Both the position numbers and the translations under genes were made by a program. Positions 25,635 to 32,744 of a stretch of DNA of 47,360 nt are shown one piece after another. Position 1 is the first letter of the stretch; every line of letters begins with the position of its first letter. This stretch comes from Phycisphaerae bacterium (GTDB lineage: Bacteria > Planctomycetota > Phycisphaerae > JAAYCJ01), in NCBI GenBank assembly GCA_012729815.1, contig JAAYCJ010000302.1, positions 1 to 47,360 on the forward strand, in the 5' to 3' direction. The notes beneath the pieces are model-generated. The model saw only the letters and a program-made list of their open reading frames with translations. It had not been told where the DNA came from and did not search any database.

Positions 25635-26210
25635 CTAGCGGCCTTTGGGCTCCACCGACTGGCGGTGGACCTGTTTGGCGTAGCGTTCCAGCAGGGCTGG
25701 GACCTGGTCGGGCGTGACCTTGGCGTGGACCTGGTCGTTGATCATGACCACCGGGGCGAGGCCGCAGGTGCCCAGGCAGCGGGTGCCTTCGAGGGTGAAG
25801 AGGCCGTCGGAGGTGGTCTGGCCGAAGTCGATGCCGAGTTCGTCGCGGAGCCGCTGGACGATCTGCTCGGCCCCCTTGACGTAGCAGGCGGTGCCCATGC
25901 ACACGCTGATGACGAACTGGCCCTTGGGCTGGAGGCGGAAGTAGTGGTAGAAGGTGGCGACTCCGGTGACCTTGGCGGCGGGGATCTGCATGAGCTGGGC
26001 GACCGCGTCGAGGTGGCTGGCGCCGAGGTAGCCGAAATGCTCCTGGACCTTGTGCAGGACGGCGATCAGGTGGCTGTCGGGGTGCTCTTTGGCCCGGCAC
26101 TCCTCGATGAACTTGACCACGTGGTCGGGCAGGGCGGCCTTGGCGACCTTCGAGACGCTCTTCCAGTTGTCGGTCTGACTCTTATCTATGGATTTGATGG
26201 GCTGTTTCAT
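25635..26210 (-). CDS. hydC: Hydrogenase [2Fe-2S] subunit HydC (NuoE-like, copy 2)
   Basis: A 191-aa NuoE-like subunit, about 30 residues longer at the N-terminus than copy 1. The [2Fe-2S] ligands are in C-M-G-T-A-C and C-L-G-T-C, followed by G-L-A-P-V-V. It would pass electrons between HydB and HydA in the second hydrogenase. Its ATG overlaps the stop of hydA copy 2 by 4 nt (ATGA), so the two are coupled. The order B-A-C here differs from rex-C-B-A in the first operon, so the two sets are not a simple recent tandem duplication. Confidence 0.95.
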   Translation of the reverse strand: MKQPIKSIDKSQTDNWKSVSKVAKAALPDHVVKFIEECRAKEHPDSHLIAVLHKVQEHFGYLGASHLDAVAQLMQIPAAKVTGVATFYHYFRLQPKGQFVISVCMGTACYVKGAEQIVQRLRDELGIDFGQTTSDGLFTLEGTRCLGTCGLAPVVMINDQVHAKVTPDQVPALLERYAKQVHRQSVEPKGR

Positions 26211-27967
26211 CGTATTCCCCTCGGCAGCACCGGCGCGTAGGCGGTGTGCAGCAGTTCGTGGGCTTTGGGGCTGCCCGGATGGTCCAGGAATTCCTCGTAG
26301 ATACGTTTGACGGCCGGGTTCTCGTGCGACCGGCGGAGCTGCTTGCCCTGGTCGATCGTGTGGAGGGCCTGGCCGCGGCGTCGGAGCAGTTCGGGGTCGA
26401 GAACCTCGAAACCGCGGGGCGGGTAGGGCTGTCCGCCGCCGCCGCTGCAGCCGGAGGGGCAGGCCATGATTTCGATCACGTGGAACTGCTTCTCGCCGGT
26501 GATGACCTTATCGAGCAGCGTTTTGGCGTTGACCAGGCCGTCGGCGACGCCGACATTGAGGGTCCGGCCGTCGATTTCGACGGCGGCTTCGCGAATTCCG
26601 GCGGCCATGCGGACTTCGGTAAAGTCGAGTTTACCGCCGGTCTTGCCGGTGATCTTCTCAGCCGCGGTCCTCAGCGTGGCTTCCATGACGCCGCCGGTGA
26701 CGCCGAAGATGTCGGCGGCGCCGGTGGCAATGCCCAGGGGGTCGTCGAATTGGCCGTCGGGCAGGTCGAGGAAGTCGATGCCGTAGGATTTGATCATCCA
26801 GATCGCCTCGCGGGTGGTGATCACCGCGTCGGTGTACGGAATGCCTTCGCGGAAGAAGTGTTCGGCGCGTCCGGCTTCGAATTTTTTGGCCACGCACGGC
26901 ATCACGGCGACCATGAAGATCTTTTCCGGGTCGATGCCGGCCTTCTGGGCGTAGTAGGTCTTGGCCAGGACCGAGAGCATCATCATCGGCGACTTGCAGC
27001 TCGAGGCGTGCGGGATCAGTTCGGGATAGAACTTTTCCAGGAAGTTGATCCACGCGGGCGAGCAGGAGGTGAACATGGGCAGCGGGCCCTTGCCGTTCAG
27101 ACGGTCGATCAGCTCGTTGGCCTCCTCGACGATGGTCATGTCGGCTCCGAGGTCGGTGTCGAAGACCTTGTCGAACCCGAGGCGGCGCAGGGCGGTGATC
27201 ATCCGGCCGGTGGCCGGCGTGCCCGGTTCGAGGCCGAAGCCTTCGCCGATGGCGGCCCGGATGGAGGGGGCGGTCTGGACCACCACGTGCTTGTCCGGAT
27301 CGGCCAGGGCCTTCCAGACCAGGTCGGTGTGCGACTGTTCGAGGAACGCGGCGACCGGGCAGGCGTTGATGCACTGGCCGCACTGGATGCAGACCGAGTC
27401 GTCCATGTTGGCCTGGTGGGCGGGGCTGACCACGACGTCAAAGCCGCGGTACTGCTGGCCGAGGTTGTAGACACCCTGGACCTCGGCGCAGACGCGGATG
27501 CACCGGCCGCACTTGATGCACTTGTTGGAGTTGCGGATCACCGATCGGCTGGAGTTCTCGAAGGGGAATTCCTTGCGTTCGCCCGCGAAGAGCCGCTCGC
27601 GCACGCCCAGCGAGTAGGCGAGGTTCTGCAGTTCGCAGTGGCCGTCGCGCTCGCAGGTCTGACAGTCCATCGGATGGTTTTCGAGCAGCAGTTCGACGAT
27701 GTCGCGGCGGGCCTGGCGGATTTCGGGGGAGTTGGTCCGCACCTCCATGCCCTCCCAGACCTGGACGGAGCAGGAGGCCATGAAGTAGGGCATCTCCTTG
27801 ACCTCGACGATGCAGACGCGGCACGAGCCGGCGATGCTGAGATTGGGATGGTAGCATAATCGCGGGATGCGGATGCCGAGGGTCTCAGCCGCCTGCATGA
27901 TGGTGGTATGCTCGGGCACGGAAATCGGCGTCTGGTCGATGGTCAGATTGATCATTTGTTGGGCCAT
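26207..27967 (-). CDS. hydA: NAD-linked [FeFe]-hydrogenase catalytic subunit HydA (copy 2)
   Basis: A 586-aa catalytic subunit with the same domain order as copy 1: N-terminal [2Fe-2S], His-Cys [4Fe-4S] (H-P-M-D-C-x2-C-x5-C), two [4Fe-4S] motifs (C-I-K-C-G-R-C and C-I-Q-C-G-Q-C), then the H-cluster domain. The loops are T-S-C302-S-P-A-W, M-P-C358-V-A-K-K and M-A-C503-P-S-G-C507-S-G-G-G-G-Q-P. As in copy 1, Ser replaces the second Cys of T-S-C-C-P; the third loop has P-S-G-C rather than P-G-G-C. AGGTGA is built into the stop region of the preceding hydB, 7 nt upstream. It differs clearly from copy 1 in sequence and probably in partners or electron carriers. Confidence 0.95.
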   Translation of the reverse strand: MAQQMINLTIDQTPISVPEHTTIMQAAETLGIRIPRLCYHPNLSIAGSCRVCIVEVKEMPYFMASCSVQVWEGMEVRTNSPEIRQARRDIVELLLENHPMDCQTCERDGHCELQNLAYSLGVRERLFAGERKEFPFENSSRSVIRNSNKCIKCGRCIRVCAEVQGVYNLGQQYRGFDVVVSPAHQANMDDSVCIQCGQCINACPVAAFLEQSHTDLVWKALADPDKHVVVQTAPSIRAAIGEGFGLEPGTPATGRMITALRRLGFDKVFDTDLGADMTIVEEANELIDRLNGKGPLPMFTSCSPAWINFLEKFYPELIPHASSCKSPMMMLSVLAKTYYAQKAGIDPEKIFMVAVMPCVAKKFEAGRAEHFFREGIPYTDAVITTREAIWMIKSYGIDFLDLPDGQFDDPLGIATGAADIFGVTGGVMEATLRTAAEKITGKTGGKLDFTEVRMAAGIREAAVEIDGRTLNVGVADGLVNAKTLLDKVITGEKQFHVIEIMACPSGCSGGGGQPYPPRGFEVLDPELLRRRGQALHTIDQGKQLRRSHENPAVKRIYEEFLDHPGSPKAHELLHTAYAPVLPRGIR

Positions 27968-27974
27968 GGTTCAC

Positions 27975-30158
27975 CTATGTTCGATCGACCGCGGCGAAGC
28001 GGCAGACCTGGAAGCATCGGCCGCAGTGGATGCAGCGGGCCTGTTCGATGATGTGGGTCTCGCGGGGCTTGCCGATGATGCACTGGACGGGGCAGGCGCG
28101 GGCGCAGGCGGTGCAGCCGACGCATTTTTCGGCGCTGATCTCGTAGTGGGTCAGCGCGGTGCAGCGGTGGGCCGGGCAGCGTTTTTCGACCACGTGGGCC
28201 ATGTACTCGTCGCGGAAGTGCGTGAGGGTCGAGAGCACCGGGTTGGCGGCGGCCCGTCCCAGTCCGCACAGCGACGATCGGCGCATCAGGCGGCCGAGGC
28301 GTTCGAGGTTGTCCAGATCGGCCAGTTCACCCTTGCCGGCGGTGATCCGTTCGAGGATTTCGAGCATGCGCTTGGTGCCTTCGCGGCAGGGCGTGCACTT
28401 GCCGCAGGATTCATCCTGCGAGAACTGCATGTAGAACCGGGCGATATCGACCATGCAGTCGCTTTCGTCCATCACGATCATCCCGCCGGAGCCCATGATC
28501 GACCCGGCGGCGGTGAGGGTGTCGTAGTCGACCGGGGTATCGATCCACTTGGCGGGGATGCAGCCGCCGGCGGGCCCGCCGGTCTGAACGGCTTTGAGTT
28601 GACGGCCGTCGGGCACGCCGCCGCCGATGTCGAAGACGATCTCGCGGAGGGTGGTGCCCATGGGCACTTCGACCAGTCCGGTGTGGTTGACCTTGCCGGC
28701 GAGGGCGAAGACCTTGGTCCCGCCGCTTTTGTCCGTGCCGATCTGGCGGAACCAGTCGGGACCGTAGTGGAGGACGGCGGGCACGTTGGCCCAGGTTTCG
28801 ACGTTGTTGATGACGGTGGGTTTGCCCCACAGGCCGCTCTGGGTCGGATAGGGCGGGCGGATTCGCGGCTGGCCCCGCGCCCCTTCGATGGAGTTGATCA
28901 GCGCGGTCTCCTCGCCGCAGACGAACGCGCCGGCGCCCAGGCGGATCTCGAGGTCGAAGTCAAAGCCGGAGCCCAGGATGTCGTCGCCGAGCACGCCATG
29001 TTCGCGGGCGAGGGCGAGGGCCGTCTCGACCCGTTTGATCGCCATCGGGTACTCAGCCCGGATGTAGAGGAAGCCGCGATGGGCCCCTACCGCGAACGCC
29101 CCGATGATCATGCCTTCGATGACGGAGAACGGGTCGCCCTCGAGCATATCGCGGTCCATAAAGGCGCCGGGGTCGCCCTCATCGGCGTTGCAGATGATGT
29201 AGCGGACGGGCTCGGTGCTCTTGATGCAGTCGGCCCATTTTTTGCCGGTCGGGTATCCGGCTCCGCCGCGGCCGCGGAGTTTGGAGCGGGTGATCCGCTC
29301 GATCACGTCGGCCGGTTCGTTCTTGTCCAGGGCGCGGGCGAGGGCTTCGAAGCCGTTGTAGTGGACGTATTCGTGGATGTTCTCCGGGTCGATGATGCCG
29401 CTGTTGCGCAGGGCGATTCGGCTTTGGCGGCTGAAGAACGAGACGTCGCCGTAGAGTTCGAAGAACCGCTGGCTGATCGGCTGCTCCTGGACCTTCAGGC
29501 GTTCGACGATCTGGCCGTTTTTGACGTGCTGTTCGACGATTTCGTCGAGATCCTGTTCGGAGGAGACGCGGTAGATGACCTTGCTCGGGCGGACCAGGAC
29601 GTGGGTGGCCTTGCCGACGGCTTCGTCGCGGCAGAGGCCGAAGCAGTTGGCCGTGCTGACCACGGCGCGGCCTTCGTCGACACCGGCCGCATCGAGTTTC
29701 TGTTTGAAGATGGCCCGGAAGTCCTTGTCGAGGAGCTTGCCGCACCGCGTACCGTAGCAGAACAGGAATTCGTACTGGCGGAAGGGTTCGACGCCGCCGT
29801 CAAGCACCAGGTCGGCCACCGGTTGGCCGCCGAGGACGTGTTGGGTGAAGATCTGGTGGACGGCTTCGCGATCGACGTTCTGGTATTTGGTCGGGAGTTT
29901 ACCGGGGACCAGGACATCGACGATGGGTTCGCGGCTGCAGCGGCCGGTGCATCCGACCCGCCGCAGGACCACGTTATCGCGGCCGGAGGCCTCGATGTGC
30001 TTGCGGAACTCGTCGCGGACGTCGTTGGCCCCCGCGGCGTTCTCGCACGTGGCCGATCCGATCTGGATTCGGATCTTCTCCTGCTCCTTGCGCTGGGCGA
30101 GGTAGTCCTTGGCCTGCTGGCGGAGCCTGCGGTAGTTCTCCATCACGGTTGATGCCAT
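27975..30158 (-). CDS. hydB: Hydrogenase NADH/flavin subunit HydB with two thioredoxin-like ferredoxin domains (copy 2)
   Basis: A 727-aa subunit. A first thioredoxin-like [2Fe-2S] domain has C38, C70 and C74. A second, complete one follows with C134-x4-C139 and C172-x3-C176. Then comes the NuoF-like FMN/NADH core (R-G-R-G-G-A-G-Y-P-T-G, N-A-D-E-G-D-P-G-A-F, G-A-F-V-C-G-E-E-T-A), an SLBB segment (G-G-P-A-G-G-C), the E-S-C-G-K-C-x2-C cluster and a C-terminal 2x[4Fe-4S] ferredoxin (C-V-G-C-T-A-C, C-I-H-C-G-R-C). It oxidises or reduces NAD(P)H and feeds HydA. Ordinary HydB has one N-terminal ferredoxin domain; the tandem pair is unusual. The start is the ATG at 30158 with GGTGGGA upstream; an earlier in-frame ATG has no support. 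Confidence 0.93.
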   Translation of the reverse strand: MASTVMENYRRLRQQAKDYLAQRKEQEKIRIQIGSATCENAAGANDVRDEFRKHIEASGRDNVVLRRVGCTGRCSREPIVDVLVPGKLPTKYQNVDREAVHQIFTQHVLGGQPVADLVLDGGVEPFRQYEFLFCYGTRCGKLLDKDFRAIFKQKLDAAGVDEGRAVVSTANCFGLCRDEAVGKATHVLVRPSKVIYRVSSEQDLDEIVEQHVKNGQIVERLKVQEQPISQRFFELYGDVSFFSRQSRIALRNSGIIDPENIHEYVHYNGFEALARALDKNEPADVIERITRSKLRGRGGAGYPTGKKWADCIKSTEPVRYIICNADEGDPGAFMDRDMLEGDPFSVIEGMIIGAFAVGAHRGFLYIRAEYPMAIKRVETALALAREHGVLGDDILGSGFDFDLEIRLGAGAFVCGEETALINSIEGARGQPRIRPPYPTQSGLWGKPTVINNVETWANVPAVLHYGPDWFRQIGTDKSGGTKVFALAGKVNHTGLVEVPMGTTLREIVFDIGGGVPDGRQLKAVQTGGPAGGCIPAKWIDTPVDYDTLTAAGSIMGSGGMIVMDESDCMVDIARFYMQFSQDESCGKCTPCREGTKRMLEILERITAGKGELADLDNLERLGRLMRRSSLCGLGRAAANPVLSTLTHFRDEYMAHVVEKRCPAHRCTALTHYEISAEKCVGCTACARACPVQCIIGKPRETHIIEQARCIHCGRCFQVCRFAAVDRT

Positions 30159-30279
30159 ATCAATCCCACCAATTGAGACATTGGGGAGCACCCCCTGCTG
30201 AGCCCTCATGATTACGGATTGATGGGGCCTTTTCAACGAAAAAATCGCCTCACGGCGGCTTGAGAACGGTGTCGGCGGT

Positions 30280-30307
30280 TTGACAGGCCGATGCGGGCGC
30301 ATATGCT
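30280..30307 (+). promoter_or_regulatory. Possible upstream promoter of the aminotransferase gene
   Basis: Perfect TTGACA at 30280-30285 and TATGCT at 30302-30307 with a 16-nt spacer. It lies about 170 nt from the gene. Confidence 0.4.
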
Positions 30308-30406: not shown

Positions 30407-30476
30407 TTGGGCTGCCGATTGTCGTGACGGCGCGGTTCGCACCAGATACAGTGGCTGTTCTTAAGGAGATATGACC

Positions 30477-31613
30477 ATGGCCAAGGTGAGGCTATACACG
30501 CCGGGTCCGACCCCGGTTCCGGAGCAGGTTCAACTGGAGATCGCCCAGCCGATGATCCACCATCGGACCAAGGAGTACCAGAATCTATTGGCGGAGGCGA
30601 CGAAGGGGTTGCAGTACCTGTTTCGGACGCAGAATGACGTGCTGACGTTCACCTCGAGCGGCACCGGGGCGATGGAAGGGGCGATCGTCTGCTGCGCCCA
30701 GCCTGGCAAGAAGGCCCTGGTGGCCCGCGGCGGGAAGTTCGGCGAGCGGTGGGGCGAGGTGTGCGAGGCTTTCGGCATCGACTACGTCGCCGTCGACGTC
30801 GAATGGGGCCACGGCGTGGACCCGAAGGTGATCGAAAAGCACCTGAGCCAGGACAAGGACATCAACATGGTCATCGCGGTCCACTCCGAGACCTCGACGG
30901 CGGCGGGCAGCGATATCGAAGCCATCGCCAAGGTGGTGGCCAAGACGCCGGCGCTGTTCATGGTCGATGCGATCAGTTCGGCTGGGGCGATGCCGATCAA
31001 GGTGGACGAGTGGGGAATCGACATCGTGGTGACCGGTTCGCAGAAGGCGTTGATGCTGCCGCCGGGATTGGCGTTCGCGTCGGTCTCGGAGAAGGCCTGG
31101 AAGGTGATCGAGTCGAACAAGCCGAAGGCGTTCTACTTTGACTACCGGGCGTACCGCAAGGCCCTCAAGAAGAACGATGCGCCGTACACGCCGGCCCTGA
31201 CGCTGGTCCGCGGGCTGCACAAGTCGCTGCAGATGATCCAGGAGGCGGGGATCGAGAACGTCTGGAAACGCTGCGCGACGCTGGCGGAGGCGTGCCGTCA
31301 GGCGTTCGTGGCGATGAACCTGAAGATTTACGCCGCTGATCCGGCCGACGCGGTCACCGGCGTGTGGCTGCCCGAGGGCGTGGATGAGAGCGCCTTCCGC
31401 AAGACCCTGCAGAAGGAGTACGGCGTGAACGTGGCGGGCGGGCAAGCGGAACTGTCGGGCAAGATTTTCCGCATGACGCACATGGGCTACGTGGACTCGG
31501 TCGATACGATGGGCGCATTGGCGGCGATCGAGGCGGTGCTGCTGCGGATGGGCCACAAGCTGACGCCCGGGGCGGGTCTGACGGCCGCCCAGAAGGTGCT
31601 GACCGCGAGCTAG
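30477..31613 (+). CDS. Class V aminotransferase (alanine/serine-glyoxylate or serine-pyruvate type)
   Basis: A 378-aa PLP enzyme of the small-chain aminotransferase family that includes serine-pyruvate and alanine-glyoxylate transaminases. It opens with Y-T-P-G-P-T-P-V-P, has H-R-T-K-E-Y and S-G-T-G-A-M-E, the PLP-binding D-A-I-S-S, and the Schiff-base Lys190 in G-S-Q-K-A-L-M. It would use amino acids such as serine or alanine with an oxo-acid acceptor in the cytoplasm. Two ATGs lie close together. The second (30477) sits 8 nt after AAGGAG, whereas the first (30471) is too close, so I chose 30477. The gene is monocistronic, with its own promoter and a rho-independent terminator at 31648-31674. 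Confidence 0.88.
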   Translation: MAKVRLYTPGPTPVPEQVQLEIAQPMIHHRTKEYQNLLAEATKGLQYLFRTQNDVLTFTSSGTGAMEGAIVCCAQPGKKALVARGGKFGERWGEVCEAFGIDYVAVDVEWGHGVDPKVIEKHLSQDKDINMVIAVHSETSTAAGSDIEAIAKVVAKTPALFMVDAISSAGAMPIKVDEWGIDIVVTGSQKALMLPPGLAFASVSEKAWKVIESNKPKAFYFDYRAYRKALKKNDAPYTPALTLVRGLHKSLQMIQEAGIENVWKRCATLAEACRQAFVAMNLKIYAADPADAVTGVWLPEGVDESAFRKTLQKEYGVNVAGGQAELSGKIFRMTHMGYVDSVDTMGALAAIEAVLLRMGHKLTPGAGLTAAQKVLTAS

Positions 31614-31647: not shown

Positions 31648-31674
31648 GGCCCCGTCCTTGTGGCGGGGCCTTTT
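31648..31674 (+). terminator. Rho-independent terminator of the aminotransferase gene
   Basis: GGCCCCG pairs with CGGGGCC (7 bp) around a 9-nt loop, followed by TTTT, 34 nt after the stop codon. Confidence 0.8.
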
Positions 31675-31686
31675 GCTGCGCCGGTT

Positions 31687-31715
31687 TTGCCGGCCGGGCG
31701 GTTGTATCGTAGATT
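31687..31715 (+). promoter_or_regulatory. Promoter of the candidate structured RNA
   Basis: TTGCCG at 31687-31692 and TAGATT at 31710-31715 are spaced by 17 nt, directly after the aminotransferase terminator and before a gene-free, structured stretch. The expected start is about 31722. Confidence 0.5.
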
Positions 31716-31721
31716 TATTAC

Positions 31722-31977
31722 GGATAAGGCAGTGGATTTGGGACGCTTGGGAGGGAAGCCTCGATGAGGCGAGAGAGACACTGGTTTTGGGCGCTCTGGA
31801 TGATCTTTTGGAACAACCCCACACGTGGCTTTGGCCAGCCCTGGGGTGCCTGGGCTCCGTAGAAGCGCCTGGAAGGTCCGGGCCGCCCGGTACCTGGGGC
31901 CGCTAAGACCCCTAGCAGTAGTTGTCGCACCAGTGACGCTGAGGGAAAGACACGCACTGGTGCGACGACTGTTTATT
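31722..31977 (+). ncRNA. Candidate structured non-coding RNA (unassigned; 6S-like possibility)
   Basis: A stretch of about 250 nt between convergent genes has no plausible ORF but has its own promoter and a terminator-like end. Paired elements, seen by eye: GCCTC/GAGGC (31758-31770); GGCGCT/AGCGCC (31790-31795 with 31864-31869) enclosing ACCCCA/TGGGGT (31816-31821 with 31842-31847) and TGGC/GCCA inside it; GGTCCGGG/CCCGGTACC (31875-31894, one bulge); and a 15-bp terminal hairpin (31921-31969). CACTGGT at 31779-31785 can also pair with ACCAGTG in the left arm of the terminal hairpin, so two exclusive folds exist. It lies next to the 5-formyl-THF cyclo-ligase gene, the usual neighbour of 6S RNA in proteobacteria, but on the opposite strand. 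I saw no match to tmRNA, RNase P or SRP RNA cores. Confidence 0.45.
31921..31977 (+). terminator. Long terminal hairpin at the end of the candidate RNA
   Basis: GTTGTCGCACCAGTG (31921-31935) pairs over 15 positions (one G-U) with CACTGGTGCGACGAC (31955-31969). The 19-nt loop is purine-rich, and TGTTTATT follows. It is strong enough to act as a terminator or a stable RNA 3' end. Confidence 0.5.
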
Positions 31978-31987
31978 GGCCCGAACT

Positions 31988-32074
31988 GAAAAAGGGGACA
32001 TTCTACTTTTTCGCTTTTCCCGGGTTTTTGCCGCCGTCAGGGCCGTTGCGGAAAAGCAGAATGTCCCCTTTTCC
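31988..32074. repeat. Inverted repeat of the GGGGACATTCTACTTT type (possible REP/MITE-like element)
   Basis: The left arm, AAAAAGGGGACATTCTACTTTTT (31989-32011, shown here only by its ends and core GGGGACATTCT), is mirrored at 32050-32074 by its near-exact reverse complement with core AGAATGTCCCC. A spacer of about 38 nt lies between. The right arm ends 2 nt before the 5-formyl-THF cyclo-ligase stop codon. Such arms form a long hairpin in RNA and look like a short mobile or REP-type element. No transposase is in the window. Confidence 0.65.
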
Positions 32075-32075
32075 T

Positions 32076-32744
32076 CTAGAAGTTCACTTCCCAGAACTGG
32101 CGGCGTTCGTCGGGTTCGTCTTCGCCGGTGGGTTCGGAGGCGGGGCGGGTGGAGGATTTGCGGACGAAGCGGAGGAGTTTATGGGGGGTGACGATGGTGT
32201 CGACGGGTTGGTCGTGATCGGCGACCGGAACGCGGGGGACGAGTTGGAGGTCGAAGGCGGCGGCGATTTTGGCGGCTTGGAGGTCGGTGCGGCTCAGGAG
32301 TTGGTCGTAGAACCCTCCGCCGCGTCCGAGGCGTCGCCCGCGTCGGTCGAAGGCCAGACCGGGCACGAGCACCAGGGCCAGTTCGCCGAGGCTGAATCGC
32401 TGGTTGGATTTGGGTTCATTGATTCCGTGGTCGTCCTTGACGAAGTCGTCGGCTGACCGGAGGACGACCGGGTGCATCTGCCATCGGTCCCAGGCGACCT
32501 TTGGGGCGCAGACGGTTTTGCCGGCGGCCAGGGCGCGGCCGATCAGGTCGGCGGTCTGGTATTCGGTGGCGAAGGAGAGGTAGACCATCAGCGAGGCGGC
32601 CTGCTGGAACTCCGGCAGTTCGATGAGTTTTTCGGTGATGCGGGCGGACCACTGGGCGATCTGAGCGGCCGGCGTCTGCTTGAGGGCCTCGCGCATTCTC
32701 TTTCGCAGATCGGCCTTTTCGGTTTTAGGATCCGGACCCGTCAT
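32076..32744 (-). CDS. 5-formyltetrahydrofolate cyclo-ligase
   Basis: This enzyme uses ATP to turn 5-formyl-THF into 5,10-methenyl-THF and so recycles folate in the cytoplasm. At 222 aa it is slightly longer than the usual 190-200. Family segments are an N-terminal K-x-x-L-R-K-R-M helix, Y-L-S-F-A-T-E-Y-Q-T near the folate site, and the ATP-binding V-P-G-L-A-F-D-R-R-G-R-R-L-G-R-G-G-G-F-Y-D. The C-terminal 20 residues are polar and not conserved. Its first 20 nt overlap the end of rarA in another frame, so the two are probably co-transcribed. The stop lies beside the inverted repeat at 31988-32074. Confidence 0.92.
   Translation of the reverse strand: MTGPDPKTEKADLRKRMREALKQTPAAQIAQWSARITEKLIELPEFQQAASLMVYLSFATEYQTADLIGRALAAGKTVCAPKVAWDRWQMHPVVLRSADDFVKDDHGINEPKSNQRFSLGELALVLVPGLAFDRRGRRLGRGGGFYDQLLSRTDLQAAKIAAAFDLQLVPRVPVADHDQPVDTIVTPHKLLRFVRKSSTRPASEPTGEDEPDERRQFWEVNF

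Follow-up and report, generated by a model that had tools for sequence, protein, structure and literature searches.

Locus and gene neighbourhood

The window, by which we mean the whole 47,360-nt stretch of DNA analysed here, corresponds to one entire contig of a 367-contig assembly. The stretch of interest occupies the gap between a class V aminotransferase gene and a convergent 5-formyl-THF cyclo-ligase (5-FCL) gene, the latter preceded on the same strand by a rarA/mgsA-type gene (Table 1). As proposed in a preliminary description of this DNA, the gap holds no recognisable genes; three frames from it, compared with Pfam, gave no match. An intrinsic terminator (a 9-bp G+C-rich stem followed by TTTTGCTG; −19.8 kcal/mol) ends the aminotransferase gene and separates it from the RNA predicted downstream. 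Beside the aminotransferase gene, minus-strand genes at 26207–30302 encode an [FeFe] hydrogenase large subunit and a NuoF-like subunit.

The RNA is adjoined at 31988–32074 by a REPIN-like palindromic repeat, consisting of AAAAGGGGACATTCTACTTTT and an inverted copy of it. This motif has 40 copies in the genome, many of them arranged as inverted pairs about 63 nt apart (a control with the reversed pattern found none). Because of this repeat, microRNA-like matches appeared in the Rfam scan; they fall on the palindrome, not on the RNA, and were discarded. Searches of phage, plasmid and viral contigs yielded nothing useful for the RNA stretch.

Table 1 Features of the RNA locus and its flanks (window coordinates).
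Feature	Position	Strand	Remarks
Class V aminotransferase gene	30471–31613	+	Upstream flank of the gap
Intrinsic terminator of the aminotransferase gene	31648–31670	+	Stem followed by TTTTGCTG
Candidate sigma-70-like promoter, TTGCCG-N17-TAGATT	31687–31715	+	Predicted start near 31722
5′ domain of the predicted transcript	31722–31825	+	Stem 31730–31734/31779–31783 with nested hairpins
Conserved rod	31826–31911	+	Outer helix 31827–31832/31906–31911; middle helix 31838–31847/31892–31900
Conserved linker, CCCUAGCAG	31910–31918	+	Identical in homologue; proposed seed
Terminator hairpin	31919–31971	+	13 conserved pairs, 17 in the window
U-rich tail, CTGTTTATTG	31969–31978	+	Homologue counterpart TTATTTTTT
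5-FCL gene	32076–32744	−	Downstream, convergent flank

Candidate promoter and terminator of the predicted transcript

The −35/−10 pair reported in the preliminary description ranks 19th among 94,650 contig positions when scored with a sigma-70 weight matrix, and a site as good is found in 6 of 520 tiles, its own tile counted; judged by a strict consensus cut-off of 9 of 12 positions, it falls short. This fair sigma-70-like promoter would begin a transcript of 256 nt at around 31722, where the 5′ end of the RNA would probably lie. Within the predicted 5′ domain, the stem listed in Table 1 forms with pairing probabilities above 0.9.

The terminal hairpin, described earlier as 15 bp long, is real: it comprises 12 perfect pairs (31924–31935/31955–31966), or 17 when G-U pairs are included (31919–31935/31955–31971), with TGTTTATT after it. 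By chance, the whole window should hold 0.8 inverted repeats with arms of at least 11 nt; two were found. The hairpin and the U-rich tract that follows it are as expected of an intrinsically terminated small RNA (sRNA), and this terminator would set the 3′ end near 31971–31978.

A homologue in a second genus

With a covariance model derived solely from the window sequence, we recovered a single convincing relative, which comes from a second genus of the same family (genome G002, contig C168, 15234–15392; E = 0.04). The window RNA and this homologue are each the sole model match in their own genome. The homologue is intergenic, and its tail reaches the stop codon of a protein-kinase-like gene that converges on it; the two copies differ in gene context, and both run toward a convergent gene. 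In the third genome of the order, which is 73% complete, the single-sequence model found no match, nor did a two-sequence model (R3) in the approximately 23% of that genome to which it was applied. Two other model matches were rejected, one (in G010) because a long helicase-like reading frame covers it and the other (in G005) because it aligned poorly.

The window RNA and its homologue align end to end over 31827–31978. The alignment runs through CCCUAGCAG(U/C)AGUUGUCGCA into the terminator hairpin and the U tail; in the hairpin, both partners of one pair differ (A-U to G-C), as does a single partner in each of two others. The U-rich tails present in both sequences fix the strand of the RNA, which is the plus strand in the window. 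Upstream, the 84 nt anchored on CCCTAGCAG scored 15, whereas neither 20,566 pieces of real DNA nor 1,000 shuffles gave a score above 7. Taken alone, sequence statistics at whole-genome scale are weak (blastn E = 0.005; Smith–Waterman E of about 2 against real DNA); what carries the case for homology is the anchored test together with the terminator and the fold common to both copies. When 41 and 397 genomes were searched by plain nucleotide comparison, only short matches came back. Among these, recurrent class-wide matches of 24–28 nt at 31864–31891 were set aside as probable rsmH-like coding sequence on the other strand; several of the matching loci presumably encode the RTFQALRI motif of rsmH.

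The two copies share a common structure in which all 35 pairs are standard in both sequences, and in which four pairs have changed on both sides and nine on one side; when the partners were slid by 1–3 columns, only 34–50% were paired. The count of 35 leans toward structure because being standard in both sequences was itself the criterion by which pairs were chosen. The comparison suggested earlier thus did reveal compensatory changes, conservation and covariation here being those of two sequences. Insertions and deletions of 2, 4, 2 and 4 bases separate the copies and break the frame, which excludes a shared reading frame. Both copies are intergenic and non-coding, and their structure is conserved with compensatory changes, as expected of an sRNA. 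By contrast with the aligned part, positions 31722–31825 do not significantly resemble the sequence that precedes the homologue, and this 5′ part is accordingly either fast-evolving or not part of the RNA.

Predicted fold of the RNA and the proposed switch

The conserved part of the RNA (31826–31978) would consist of a rod-like irregular hairpin, followed by the linker CCCUAGCAG and then the terminator. The rod is capped by an apical hairpin at 31867–31873/31877–31883 (UGGA-WGG-UCC). Energy minimization of the window sequence yields this rod for transcripts starting at 31820 or later, and that of the homologue yields it at all starts tried. In the core folds predicted for the two sequences, most of the linker is single-stranded. 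Taken whole, the 259-nt stretch is moderately better folded than its shuffles (z = −2.25), a result matched by 89 of 725 contig windows when G+C content is considered; the conserved part folds more strongly (z = −3.79 for 31813–31977), as does the homologue (z = −5.08). Pairing between the transcript ends is not unusual, being matched or exceeded by 2,886 of 6,729 pairs with the same spacing.

The preliminary description had seen in this stretch a structured RNA, reaching from promoter to terminator, with two mutually exclusive folds. The analysis supports a structured RNA on the plus strand, with a promoter-like site and a terminator close to the proposed ends and with a homologue in another genus; it does not support the exclusive folds. 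The element supposed to switch between them, CACTGGT, does lie at 31779–31785, but its pairing with the arm of the terminal hairpin costs about 20 kcal/mol and has a computed probability of 0. That pairing is not conserved either, since none of the 7-mers upstream in the homologue is complementary to the hairpin arm there. In the full-length window transcript, a different helix (31786–31798/31860–31873) is predicted to be better than the rod by 2.5 kcal/mol. It is absent from the homologue, and only the rod is common to both sequences. This helix and the rod are the only nearly equal pair of folds seen in the predictions, and they do not demonstrate a switch.

Comparison with 6S RNA and other known families

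The Rfam scan of the RNA stretch, which included the 6S family (RF00013), returned no match up to E = 10. RNase P RNA and SRP RNA are both encoded elsewhere in the genome, and the RNA is therefore not the only copy of either. Rfam detected 6S RNA in 21 of the 41 sampled genomes and in none of the three from the order to which the window belongs. We built a class-specific 6S model (R1) from an alignment of 18 6S RNAs of the class. This model is significant in most sampled genomes of the class, with E-values down to 1e-47; it reaches at most 2.6 bits in the RNA region and is also negative in all three genomes of the order. A model that is significant in most relatives and negative at this locus indicates that the RNA is not 6S, and the doubt about 6S voiced in the preliminary description was well placed.

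The sequence blocks of the class 6S RNAs (TGTTCG...ACCGAT near the 5′ end and GGCATTGCGGTGGAGG at the 3′ end) were not found in the window RNA. Nor does it have their architecture, in which a long closing stem joins the ends and encloses a large central bubble; the rod has small internal loops only. Functionally, 6S RNAs associate with the RNA polymerase holoenzyme, for which they are templates of product RNAs. The 5-FCL gene is a neighbour of 6S RNA in the enterobacterial arrangement. Of 12 class 6S loci tested, none has a cyclo-ligase, rarA or aminotransferase gene within 1.5 kb.

The survey also brought out a clear class-wide 6S RNA, with the consensus CCTCTGCCATGTTCG...GAACCGAT...GGGTT...GGCATT.CGGTGGAGG, which in many genomes lies below the Rfam cut-off or is missed by Rfam. 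It was undetected in the order of the window and in several other families of the class.

Interpretation

We put at roughly one half the probability that the plus strand of this stretch encodes an independently transcribed sRNA that likely acts by base-pairing through its exposed linker, with the rod as a stability or protein-binding module. The computations show its homology, common fold, intergenic position and strand, whereas we infer its transcription and its mechanism. The linker would base-pair with target mRNAs, and the rod would stabilize the RNA or bind a protein. A mostly unpaired linker between a rod and a terminator is common anatomy in base-pairing sRNAs, and for this reason we take base-pairing to be the likeliest mode of action; gene regulation is our best guess for the job of the RNA. 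It resembles intrinsically terminated trans-acting sRNAs in being an intergenic gene with a promoter-like site, stem-loops, an exposed conserved stretch and a terminator with a U-rich tail. It differs from trans-acting sRNAs generally in that its terminator arm is unusually strongly conserved in sequence, and in having no similarity to Rfam families.

An alternative, unlikely but deserving some weight, is that the RNA is a 3′-UTR-derived or read-through product, that is, the processed 3′ end of the transcript of the upstream gene, and lacks a separate promoter. In favour of this, the RNA and the gene before it share a strand in both genomes, and no strong promoter lies near the core of the homologue. 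However, the upstream genes are not the same in the two genomes, and in the window both the intrinsic terminator of the upstream gene and, beyond it, a promoter-like site precede the RNA.

Somewhat less probable is a structural role in which the RNA binds a protein; it could, for instance, bind RNA polymerase as a substitute for 6S. Its rod-like fold would suit such a role, as would the distribution of 6S itself, which is undetected by Rfam and by the class model in three of three genomes of the order and is present in most sampled genomes of the class. There is a parallel in the Ms1 RNA of Actinobacteria, which substitutes for 6S RNA in binding RNA polymerase (PMC9130861); the likeness, drawn through the Rfam scan only, is that of a structured RNA where canonical 6S is missing. 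The rod, however, is about 85 nt long compared with about 185 nt for class 6S, and there is neither a large central bubble nor a strong stem joining the ends. Moreover, 6S likewise escaped detection in several further families of the class, which makes its absence from the order weak evidence. The stronger proposal, that the order has lost canonical 6S and that a new RNA family has replaced it in the regulation of RNA polymerase, is highly improbable.

We consider it quite improbable that the locus is a mere strong terminator between convergent genes and the remainder unconstrained spacer. It is true that conservation is highest in the terminator and that no other hairpin is as stable, but upstream of the anchor the rod has kept both its sequence and its pairing, and the linker, which a terminator does not need, is conserved as well. 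Finally, 6S RNA itself, with which the window RNA shares a rod-like non-coding form and, in this one genome, the 5-FCL neighbour, has a negligible probability, because that gene neighbour is its sole support and the window RNA, unlike 6S, lacks a sequence or covariance match, a central bubble and a closing stem, and ends in a separate terminator.

The RNA thus probably represents a new sRNA family of an ordinary kind, narrowly distributed and intrinsically terminated, with two known members. If so, the family is an undescribed one; a brief literature search found no described regulatory RNA for this group. Plain BLAST can miss a relative such as the one reported here, with which the longest exact blocks are only 9 and 10 bases, whereas a covariance model built from one sequence finds it.
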